From an uncultured Balneola sp. (GTDB taxonomy: Bacteria > Bacteroidota > Rhodothermia > Balneolales > Balneolaceae): 64,000 bases of DNA. The DNA is taken from the NCBI GenBank assembly GCA_913058495.1, contig CAJXQC010000011.1, positions 1-64,000 of the forward strand, written 5' to 3'. The position numbers and the translations under genes are program-made. Shown piece after piece: positions 11,628 through 15,246 of this stretch (the first letter of the stretch is position 1; the number at the start of each line of letters is the position of its first letter). The notes beneath the pieces are model-generated. The model was not told where the DNA came from. It saw nothing but the letters and a program-made list of their open reading frames with translations, and made no database searches.

Positions 11628-12482
11628 ATGACACAACAGGGCAGATTTAAAAGATCCAACAACGACGACGATTTCGACTTAGATTCCTACCTCGATGAAC
11701 AAGCTCATAAAACCTCAGAACCAACTCAGCAAATTGAGGATGAGCACGAAACTTCTTTTATAAAAAACGCGGGCTTGGGTCTTGCTCTGGTATTCACTGC
11801 TTTCCTGTGGTATCATGATTGGAGCCCAAAGCAAGCTTATGCTAGTATTTTCGGAAGTGATGAAGCCACTGTTGTAGCAACAGGTCAGGCCGGGAATCAG
11901 ATTATTATTGACATCCCTGAGATCAGGATCCCGGAAATTACTATTCCGGAAACACGGGAGATCGAACGAGCCATAGAGCGCGAGCTAGCCAGAGCTTCAG
12001 CAAGTGAAGATCTTCCTTCTGTTACTGATTATTTAGTAGAGCTAAAAGAGCTGGGTTTACTGGAAGACGACAAACTTAGTGCCTTTCAAGCCCGCCAACT
12101 ACATTCGGCAGGTGTTCCCGTTTCCTATATTCAGGAAGTTGATAATGCAGGTTTTCTGGATGTGTTAAACTTTGTGGCAATCTCTGAATTCTATAACAAC
12201 GATATCCCACTTAGCTATATTTCTGAATTTGAAGAAGCAGGCTTTTTAGATAAAGTGAATTTTATCGGAATAAGCGAATTCTACAAAAACAATGTGTCTA
12301 TGGATTACCTAAGAACTCTGGACCAAGCCGGTTATCTTGACGATCTAAGCTTTGTATACATCACAGAATATTATAAAGCTGGAGTTACCACGGCCTTTTT
12401 AGACGATCTGAAAGCAAAAGGATTGTATGAGGATCTAAGCTTTGTGGATGTGGTAGAAATGTTTAAAGACGAGAATAATTAG
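11628..12482 (+). CDS. Repeat-domain single-pass membrane protein, tandem family member 1 (type A TM region)
   Basis: Internal Met (MTQQGRFKRSNNDDDFDLDSYLDEQ) matches paralogue N-termini better than the ORF start at 11586; TM then DWSPKQAYASIFG; 30-aa repeats. Confidence 0.75.
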   Translation: MTQQGRFKRSNNDDDFDLDSYLDEQAHKTSEPTQQIEDEHETSFIKNAGLGLALVFTAFLWYHDWSPKQAYASIFGSDEATVVATGQAGNQIIIDIPEIRIPEITIPETREIERAIERELARASASEDLPSVTDYLVELKELGLLEDDKLSAFQARQLHSAGVPVSYIQEVDNAGFLDVLNFVAISEFYNNDIPLSYISEFEEAGFLDKVNFIGISEFYKNNVSMDYLRTLDQAGYLDDLSFVYITEYYKAGVTTAFLDDLKAKGLYEDLSFVDVVEMFKDENN

Positions 12483-12489
12483 GATTAAA

Positions 12490-13413
12490 ATGAGCAAGCA
12501 GAAGTTTCGATACGATTTACACAATACCGATGATCCCGATTTTGATCTGGATGCATATATAGATGAGCAAGCAAACGCCGGCGATCAGAACTTTGAACAG
12601 GAATTCAATTCACATCCAACAACAAAAAGAAATCTGTTGGCTCTTTCGGTTATATTAATTCCGGCAATATGGTTCTTCTTAAGTGATCCATTTTCAGTTT
12701 TCTCTGATAGCTCAAACTTTACCTCTTCTCAGGCTGGTCAAACCATTGTAGTAGAGAGACCTGAACCTAATGTAAGGATAATTACAGCACCTCCTGCTCC
12801 CGTCCCTCTTCAGGGATCTAATTTTAGTTTTGAGCCCGGAAATACTGTTGCAGACCTTGGAATGAGTTATACTGATTATCTTGCTGAACTTAAAGAATAT
12901 GGTTATCTGGATGATTTTGGAGGAAGTGCATCTACGCGTTTATACCAAAACAATGTTCCTGTTGAATACATCGATCAATTCGGAAAAGCAGGAGTTCTAA
13001 ATAATTTCGGGAGTACGTCTATCTCAAGATTGTATCAAAACCAAGTTCCTTTTGATTACATCCAAAATATGGCTGACGCAGGATTATTGAACAATTTTGG
13101 AAGTACTTCTATCTCCAGATTATACCAAAACCAGATTCCTTTCGAATATATCATAAAATTTAAAGAAGCGAATGTACTGGAAGATTTCGGTAGTACATCC
13201 ATCTCAAGATTATATCAGAATGGTGTACCCACAGAATATATTTCTGAAATAGCAACAAACGGATATTTGAATAATTTTGGGAGTACATCAATCGTACGAC
13301 TACACCAAAATCAGGTTCCCGTTAGTTTTTTGAAAACTCTTGACGAAAAAGGATTATTGGATGATATGTCATCCGAATCCGTAGTAACTGCTTATCAACT
13401 TGAAGGACAATAA
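12490..13413 (+). CDS. Repeat-domain single-pass membrane protein, tandem family member 2 (type B TM region)
   Basis: N-terminal DDPDFDLDAYIDEQANA; TTKRNLLALSVILIPAIWFFLSDPFSVF; repeats of type NQVPFDYIQNMADAGLLNNFGSTSISRLYQ. Confidence 0.78.
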   Translation: MSKQKFRYDLHNTDDPDFDLDAYIDEQANAGDQNFEQEFNSHPTTKRNLLALSVILIPAIWFFLSDPFSVFSDSSNFTSSQAGQTIVVERPEPNVRIITAPPAPVPLQGSNFSFEPGNTVADLGMSYTDYLAELKEYGYLDDFGGSASTRLYQNNVPVEYIDQFGKAGVLNNFGSTSISRLYQNQVPFDYIQNMADAGLLNNFGSTSISRLYQNQIPFEYIIKFKEANVLEDFGSTSISRLYQNGVPTEYISEIATNGYLNNFGSTSIVRLHQNQVPVSFLKTLDEKGLLDDMSSESVVTAYQLEGQ

Positions 13414-13418
13414 ATACA

Positions 13419-14174
13419 ATGAGCTCTCAACGATTTAAAAACGAACTCCGTGGTGGTCAGGATGATCCCGATTTTGATCTGGATGCCTATTTACAAGAAC
13501 AATCTCATCCTGACGAGCAATTTGAAGATCACGCTAATGATCCTTCCAAAGGTTCCTCCTTTCTAAAAAACACCTTTCTCATTGTAGGGCTTGCCATTTT
13601 TGCTTTGCTTTATTTTAACGACTGGAGTCCTAAGCTTGTTTACGGTAATATTTTCGGAGTAGAGGAATATCAAGAACATTCTGTAGCACCTGAGCCGGTA
13701 ATTCCTGTCACCCGGAATTCAGAACCCGATGTAGTTATAACTGACAGTGATCTGGCAGGAACTAATGATATTGTTGTTACACAAGGACTTGAAAACCTGG
13801 CTCGTTTAGAGGCTCTGGAAGCATTAGAAAGCCTCGAAGGTTTAGCTGAACTGGAAAATCTGGAAGGACTAGAGGGTTTAGAAGAGTTGGCAAAACTTTC
13901 AGCACTTGAAGGACTTAAGGCACTTTCGAATCTTGAAAATCCATCTTTTATTCAAGTAGAAAATAATTCCACTGAATTTCCTGCTACTCTAGAAGATTAT
14001 AACACAAAATTAAATGAAGCAGGGCTTTCAGATAAATTTGATACAGAAACGGTAGCTGAACTTTTCGACGCCAAAGTTCCGGTTCCTGTATTAAAAACAT
14101 TGAATGACAATGATCTGTTAGATTCATTCGATATTTCATCGCTGATCGAGGGATATAAGAATCAAGGAAATTAA
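13419..14174 (+). CDS. Tandem family member 3 (type A TM region) with leucine-triplet tract
   Basis: QRFKNELRGGQDDPDFDLDAYLQEQ; TM then DWSPKLVYGNIFG; 17 Lxx triplets; only cap-type repeat units. Confidence 0.78.
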   Translation: MSSQRFKNELRGGQDDPDFDLDAYLQEQSHPDEQFEDHANDPSKGSSFLKNTFLIVGLAIFALLYFNDWSPKLVYGNIFGVEEYQEHSVAPEPVIPVTRNSEPDVVITDSDLAGTNDIVVTQGLENLARLEALEALESLEGLAELENLEGLEGLEELAKLSALEGLKALSNLENPSFIQVENNSTEFPATLEDYNTKLNEAGLSDKFDTETVAELFDAKVPVPVLKTLNDNDLLDSFDISSLIEGYKNQGN

Positions 14175-14178
14175 TACT

Positions 14179-15246
14179 ATGGCAAATCAAAGATTTAAAA
14201 ATGAACTGCGTGGCAATCAGGATGATCCCGATTTTGATCTGGATTCTTACATAGACGAGCAAGCCAATGCCACCGGTACAGAAAAGCTTGATCAGGAATT
14301 TGTTGAACCGCCAACATCCACTAAAAGAAACATCATCGCAATATTACTGTTTGCTGTGATACCGGCTGTATGGTTTTTAACAAGCAGTCCGATTTCTGTT
14401 TTTAACTTTGATAACGGCAACCAAACAACTGTTTCGCAGGGACAAAATGTAGTACAAGCCCCTTTGCCTCCTGCTGCACCGCTGCCTCCCAGAATTTCAA
14501 CAACCGAAGGAGTAACTAGCGTATATCTGGATTATTTACAAGCTGCGACCGAGGCCGGATATACCAATCAAATCAATTCTACCGGAATACGGGCACTGTA
14601 CGATAGCGGTGTTCCTCTTTCATATTTAGAGCAAATGAATCAAGCCGGTTTTCTTGATGATTTTTCTTACTCCGGAATTATTGGATTGTATAACGGTGGT
14701 GTACCGATGGAATATTTAACGATGATGAACGAAGCAGGATATATGGATGACTTTTCCTATTCAGGAATCATTGGACTTTACAACGGAGGTGTTCCCACTT
14801 CTTACCTGGATCAACTGAATGTTGGTGGTTATTTAGATGATTTCTCCTACTCAGGAGTTATCGGTTTGTATAGCGGCGGCGTACCAAATGAGTTTCTTGC
14901 CCGAATGGAAGCCGGCGGTTACCTGGACGAATTTTCTTACTCCGGATTGATAGGCTTATACAGTGGCGGTGTTAGTGTTGAGTATCTGGACAGGTTAAAC
15001 GCAGCAGAACTCCTGAACGATTTTTCTTACTCTGCCATAATCGGACTCCAAAGCTCGGGCGTTACTACCGATTACATTATTCAATTAAAAGAAGCCGGTT
15101 TTCTAAACACCTTTTCTTATTCAGGAATCATTGGTTTATACAACTCAGATGTACCTGTAAGTTTCATACAGGAACTGGACAGCAGAAGCCTCCTCGTTGA
15201 TATGAGTTATACCGATGTGATTCGTGCTTATGGAGATGGGAATTAG
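14179..15246 (+). CDS. Tandem family member 4 (type B TM region) with seven phased 30-aa units
   Basis: QRFKNELRGNQDDPDFDLDSYIDEQANA; STKRNIIAILLFAVIPAVWFLTSSPISVF; repeats of type GGVPMEYLTMMNEAGYMDDFSYSGIIGLYN at an exact 90-nt period. Confidence 0.8.
   Translation: MANQRFKNELRGNQDDPDFDLDSYIDEQANATGTEKLDQEFVEPPTSTKRNIIAILLFAVIPAVWFLTSSPISVFNFDNGNQTTVSQGQNVVQAPLPPAAPLPPRISTTEGVTSVYLDYLQAATEAGYTNQINSTGIRALYDSGVPLSYLEQMNQAGFLDDFSYSGIIGLYNGGVPMEYLTMMNEAGYMDDFSYSGIIGLYNGGVPTSYLDQLNVGGYLDDFSYSGVIGLYSGGVPNEFLARMEAGGYLDEFSYSGLIGLYSGGVSVEYLDRLNAAELLNDFSYSAIIGLQSSGVTTDYIIQLKEAGFLNTFSYSGIIGLYNSDVPVSFIQELDSRSLLVDMSYTDVIRAYGDGN

Follow-up and report, generated by a model that had tools for sequence, protein, structure and literature searches.

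RESULTS

Four neighbouring genes for repeat proteins

The window (the whole 64,000-nucleotide stretch of DNA analysed) belongs to G000, a genome of 3.4 Mb. At this locus, the closest relatives with a name are isolates of Balneola, with 95% protein identity. Between positions 11586 and 15246 lie four neighbouring ORFs, all on the + strand and separated in the ORF listing by gaps of a few bases only (Table 1). The arrangement is operon-like, and the four encoded proteins, referred to here as members 1 to 4, are paralogues. For member 1, relatives use the ATG at 11628 as the start. Promoter matches around the cluster do not exceed the number expected by chance. Hairpins are found just 3′ of the cluster; the ~0.9 kb at 15247-16187 contains no listed long ORF and has inverted repeats, for example GAGGGATGTTGTG...CACAACATCCCTC near 15360-15415.

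Table 1. Positions of the four genes and of the features assigned within them
Feature	Position	Strand	Content or basis
Member 1, 298 aa	11586..12482	+	Tail, putative TM helix, linker, 5 units
Repeat domain of member 1	12018..12479	+	N-terminal unit, 3 internal units, C-terminal unit
N-terminal unit of member 1, diverged	~12018-12113	+	Approximate boundary (unit parse)
Member 2, 307 aa	12490..13413	+	Tail, putative TM helix, linker, 6 units of FGSTSISRLYQN type
Repeat domain of member 2	12865..13410	+	N-terminal, 4 internal and C-terminal unit (TRF, unit parse)
Member 3, 251 aa	13419..14174	+	Tail, putative TM helix, Leu/Glu-rich predicted helix, 2 units
Leu/Glu-rich helical stretch, LEALEALESLEGLAELENLEGLEGLEEL...	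13761..13928	+	Sequence; helix in AF2 model, pLDDT below 50
Two-unit stub of member 3	13986..14171	+	N-terminal and C-terminal unit (unit parse, AF2)
Member 4, 355 aa	14179..15246	+	Tail, putative TM helix, linker, 8 units of FSYSGIIGLYNGG type
Conserved putative cytoplasmic motif of member 4, DPDFDLDSYIDEQ	14224..14262	+	Alignment, motif list
Putative TM helix of member 4, NIIAILLFAVIPAVWFLT, KR just before	14329..14382	+	Read from sequence
Repeat domain of member 4, predicted alpha-alpha solenoid	14521..15243	+	N-terminal, 6 internal and C-terminal unit (AlphaFold2, TRF, unit parse)

A tree combined with a neighbourhood comparison indicates that the four paralogue clades stay clustered as neighbours across genera. 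The dN/dS ratios are 0.04 for member 1, 0.09-0.18 for member 2 and 0.06 for member 4, and the proteins of the cluster are therefore constrained by purifying selection. Genes that recur around the cluster encode DUF2911, vWA, ABC transporter, NfeD-like and SPFH-like proteins (the last three named by eye from sequence), and their recurrence looks more like shared synteny than functional partnership. No sigma factor, anti-sigma factor or two-component pair was recognised in the neighbourhood analysis as a conserved signalling partner beside the cluster. When the window (11628-15243) is compared with locus L038, dS is ~1.0 in members 1-2 and 0.4-0.5 in members 3-4, a drop along the cluster that may reflect exchange between strains. 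Elsewhere in the window, at 6917-10484, two tandem vWA/YfbK-like paralogues have long identical C-terminal stretches in common, which suggests gene conversion.

The repeat unit and the terminal units

The consensus of the unit is V-P-x-[ED]-Y-[LI]-x-x-L-x-x-A-G-Y-L-D-[DE]-F-S-Y-S-x-I-I-x-L-Y-N-x-G. The preliminary description of this DNA had proposed a 30-residue unit present in 3, 4, 0 and 6 internal copies, and these numbers proved exact, the profile giving totals of 5, 6, 2 and 8 units in members 1-4. The period is equally firm: 276 of 277 consecutive spacings were exactly 30 residues in a position-specific parse that covered members 1, 2 and 4 and a further paralogue (S, below) across orthologues and that mildly penalised other spacings. 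With a 30-column unit profile, the seed of which included the window's own units, members 1-4 reached total scores of 163, 278, 78 and 352 bits. Shuffled ORFs never exceeded ~11 bits in later searches with refined profiles, which excludes a chance origin of the unit matches. Tandem arrays of 90 bp were detected independently by TRF in members 2 and 4. Internal units are 40-76% identical within member 4 and 53-73% within member 2, and the nucleotide copies inside one gene are only ~72-74% alike (TRF), indicating no recent expansion in this cluster.

The preliminary description also had each protein open and close with a cap. A distinct class at the C-terminus is upheld: the C-terminal unit has 38% identity to the C-terminal units of other paralogues and 28% to their internal units, and it was matched best by another C-terminal unit of the same orthologue group in 132 of 132 (member 1), 156 of 156 (member 2) and 217 of 240 comparisons (member 4). 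The term 'cap' itself is misleading, because the terminal units are complete, diverged 30-residue hairpins and not shorter, separate elements. In member 1, the N-terminal unit has diverged strongly and is a little longer. Features that go beyond the preliminary description, as judged from the sequences, are a putative transmembrane anchor, a conserved tail, a Leu/Glu-rich predicted helix in member 3 and a kinship with the GVTPEYI-type repeats of M56/BlaR1 proteins.

Predicted structure

A helical solenoid had been suspected from the sequence, and the AlphaFold2 model of member 4 agrees, predicting a regular alpha-alpha solenoid with pLDDT >90 along the repeats, in which each unit forms two helices of ~9 residues. 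The helical hairpins stack in the model, the arrangement by which an alpha-solenoid is recognised. The model was built from a shallow alignment of 8 sequences, and the curvature of the rod is uncertain; the tail, TM segment and linker are modelled at low confidence.

One possible explanation is that the unit belongs to a classical repeat class (TPR, Sel1, HEAT, PPR or TALE-like) that was missed by the profiles. The predicted alpha-alpha solenoid would suit such a class, as would a weak resemblance in Foldseek, where the top natural matches of the member 4 model were TALE proteins and BurrH (E 0.6-1.1, TM 0.23-0.24; not significant). The DNA-binding repeats of TALE and BurrH are likewise alpha-alpha, with ~33 residues; however, the repeats of the window stand behind a putative TM helix and have another motif, and the TM-score is only ~0.23. 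In addition, there was no fold match in the PDB at E<=1e-3, no Pfam or NCBIfam model of the TPR, Sel1, HEAT, ARM or PPR families matches members 1-4, and strong statistics link the unit motif to GVTPEYI-type repeats instead (see below). We therefore regard a missed classical class as highly improbable. Scans of the four proteins with Pfam, NCBIfam and PHROGs gave sub-threshold matches only, probably by chance, and a Foldseek search of viral structures gave nothing significant. A match to glucokinase (E=0.02) in a sequence search of solved structures was judged to be chance.

Member 3 has a different composition, being mainly a Leu/Glu-rich predicted helix plus a two-unit stub. As had been described, it is without internal units, the profile giving an N-terminal and a C-terminal unit only. 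Its AF2 model is poor (mean pLDDT 46), with the stub modelled as four short helices at pLDDT ~65-86 over most of its length. Another genome (G006, L039:7033-9065) lacks member 3, and its member 4 opens with the first codons of member 3, which suggests recombination between the similar 5′ ends of members 3 and 4. In another family of the order (G037, L058:5812-7023), a Leu/Glu-rich helix and repeats are found in one chain, and this protein thus combines what in Balneola is distributed over member 3 and the other members.

Putative membrane anchor and cytoplasmic tail

In the alignment, each of the four members opens with a short, acidic tail, followed by a hydrophobic stretch after basic residues, a linker and then the repeats. 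The tail contains the motif DFDLDxYIDEQ, or more loosely DFDLDxY(I/L)xEQ, in members 1-4 and most orthologues, with the invariant columns F6, D16, D18, F19, D20, L21, D22 and Y24. The members are putative single-pass inner-membrane proteins. By the positive-inside rule, the basic residues that precede the TM segment would place the N-terminus inside and the repeats in the periplasm. The model of member 4 has a helix at residues 51-59 in the putative TM region, at low pLDDT.

Number of units in relatives

Of 61 genomes searched, 23 contained relatives, and a profile detected relatives in 26 of the 398 genomes of a phylum sample; 25 of these 26 are in the window's own family and one is in another family of the order. 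The repeat family of the window is thus nearly confined to Balneolaceae. The tree separates members 1, 2, 3 and 4 and a fifth paralogue, S, which is encoded elsewhere, its deep branches being rough because the alignment spans the repeats.

Among these tree-defined orthologues, member 1 has 5 units in ten genomes and 6 in two; member 2 has 5 in one genome, 6 in six, 7 in five and 8 in one; member 4 has 8 in 12 of 16 genomes, which represent several genera, and 6, 6, 7 and 9 in the others; and member 3 has 2, 1 or no units, although in more distant genomes a total can err by one because the profile barely detects the diverged N-terminal units. Members 1, 2 and 4 have constant counts among four close Balneola genomes. 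Paralogue S in G000 (L054:6833-7594) is shorter by exactly 90 bp, or one unit, than in its three close relatives G003, G006 and G007 (L055, L127, L128). Between genera, the best match of an internal unit was at the same position in 141 of 186 comparisons for member 1, 123 of 220 for member 2 and 239 of 608 for member 4, so that positional identity is largely lost in the latter two. This loss could be due to turnover or homogenisation of units, or to loss of signal under a common consensus.

The length of the solenoid had been called evolvable, with repeat counts expected to vary between orthologues. They do vary, and by whole units (5-6 in member 1, 5-8 in member 2 and 6-9 in member 4), but they are more often conserved, and fast evolution is not what the counts indicate. 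Length therefore changes slowly, by whole units.

These data bear on the possibility that the proteins are fast-evolving periplasmic recognition modules, in which selection for new ligands drives diversity in the number and sequence of the repeats. The differing counts of orthologues, the gain or loss of a 90-bp unit between close strains in paralogue S, the recombinational loss of member 3 in one strain and the internal units of member 4 without positional identity between genera would all be expected of such modules. Against them stand the strong purifying selection (dN/dS 0.04-0.18), the constancy of members 1, 2 and 4 in the four close Balneola genomes and the limited nucleotide similarity of copies inside a gene, and we consider this explanation very unlikely.

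Kinship with repeats of M56/BlaR1 proteins

Weak matches led to single-pass proteins of Balneolaceae with 229-286 aa and GVTATYTSQIREAGYTNVTLEELVDLQNA-type units, the GVTATYT proteins (L068, L070, L077, L078; the copy of G000 is at G000:C4:73697-74377). Their full-length plan is that of the window proteins: an MSxKFKNLRNDL-type N-terminus predicted to lie inside, a TM helix and tandem units. They differ in that a genome usually has a single copy, the units resemble the GVTPEYI type, the DFDLDxYIDEQ motif is absent, and receiver-domain-like and outer-membrane-barrel-like genes lie in the neighbourhood. A two-unit profile of this family matched the window family with E down to 8e-13 (best decoy 0.16).

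In a search of the phylum, the GVTATYT family was found in most genomes of the window's family, G000 included, and its repeats were also found in much larger proteins of other classes. Three of the larger proteins that were scanned have a PF05569 Peptidase_M56 domain followed by tandem GVTPEYI-type units. A two-unit profile of these matched members 4, 1 and 2 with E=5e-11, 1e-10 and 2e-6 (best shuffled decoy 0.67); member 3 was not detected by it. HHalign gave a probability of 97% for the GVTPEYI-type repeats against the window units. The chain of homology is transitive, because the units of the larger proteins were gathered with the GVTATYT profile; nonetheless, the direct comparison of the GVTPEYI profile with the window is significant.

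The M56 proteins (e.g., L112:4840-7563, L110:3256-5715 and L111:754-3453, of the same GTDB phylum) have a homologous tandem unit, GV[TP]xxYIxxLxxAGYxDLSxxxLIxL, and an extracytoplasmic C-terminal position is expected for the repeats of both groups. The window proteins differ in lacking the M56 protease domain, in a unit of 30 rather than 29 residues, in their consensus (FSYSGIIGLYNGG) and in being four adjacent paralogues. These profile comparisons place the window units in a diverged branch, belonging to Balneolaceae, of the GVTPEYI-type repeat, which also makes up the C-terminal part of M56/BlaR1-type proteins of related phyla and classes. As far as sequence comparison goes, they are a new branch of a repeat class already present on M56 proteins but uncatalogued: the units of the window family, the GVTATYT proteins and the M56-associated repeats are without a Pfam or NCBIfam model, all three groups giving only sub-threshold or scattered matches. 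Nothing relevant was found in the literature on Balneola repeat proteins, the GVTPEY string or M56/BlaR1 repeat sensors. A plasmid search gave no match with member 4 and one weak Rhizobium match with a GVTPEYI-type protein.

DISCUSSION

On balance, the cluster probably encodes an operon-like set of four single-pass inner-membrane proteins, each with a periplasmic protein-binding rod and a cytoplasmic docking tail. A protein-binding rod is the simplest reading of the repeats. The rods, built of 5, 6, 2 and 8 helix-turn-helix units of 30 residues, would stand in the periplasm on a flexible linker and act as protein-binding scaffolds or sensors, probably associating with each other and with partners in the envelope. 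Rods that differ in their number of units would also differ in reach and in binding surface, and length would change through recombination between 90-bp units. The conserved tail would dock one cytoplasmic partner, and member 3 would add a helical, possibly oligomerising, element. Co-assembly of the four members and a common cytoplasmic partner seem likely.

Alternatively, the proteins might be structural tethers, with rods that bridge the inner membrane to peptidoglycan or the outer membrane without signalling, and with a reach set by the number of units. A fixed span would require a constant count, and member 4 is mostly fixed at 8 units; its predicted rod is regular; and in several genomes a gene for a likely outer-membrane beta-barrel comes after the related GVTATYT gene. 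However, the Pfam scan found no peptidoglycan-binding or lipoprotein domain in members 1-4, the conserved cytoplasmic motif suggests a partner inside the cell, and the number of units differs between genera. We consider tethers unlikely.

The reading as membrane-anchored protein-binding rods finds an analogy, and only an analogy, in the BlaR1/MecR1 beta-lactam sensors, which also carry an extracytoplasmic module on a membrane anchor. In BlaR1, the extracytoplasmic sensor occupies the C-terminal place, and in the M56 relatives this is the place occupied by the repeats. Unlike BlaR1/MecR1, the window proteins have no protease (no Pfam match above the cut-off to PF05569, the HExxH protease, in members 1-4), no penicillin-binding sensor domain and no BlaI-type repressor beside the cluster. 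The sensor analogy is indirect, because the only M56 protein detected in G000 is without repeats. A bolder proposal, which we put forward as speculation with a rather low likelihood, is a hitherto undescribed periplasmic system in which four rods of set, different lengths (2, 5, 6 and 8 units), built from the repeat that forms the extracytoplasmic part of M56-type sensors and bearing the same cytoplasmic docking motif, would form one inner-membrane complex that senses or measures something in the envelope.

The cluster isolates a BlaR1-associated helical repeat from the protease, in a form that is short and regular, with small genes and natural length variants. The fold and ligand of the repeat are thereby directly testable. 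It also offers a neat example of a solenoid that grows by exact 90-bp units while its terminal units are conserved.

Finally, we note some properties of the M56 proteins themselves. The one detected in G000 (L129:2636-4806, G000:C3) is preceded by a BlaI-like regulator gene; it was considered as a bearer of the window repeats and rejected, having a TonB-like C-terminus and no repeats. At L112:3604-7563 and L110:3256-6999, the gene for an M56-type protein that bears repeats at its C-terminus is followed by one for a second protein with the same repeats and a likely signal peptide (at L112 this is L112:3604-4788, adjoining the M56 gene), and the two are possibly repeat-repeat partners. At L118:3158-5533, an M56-like protein next to masked sequence contains near-identical two-unit duplications, which indicate recent expansion of a GVTPEYI-type array.
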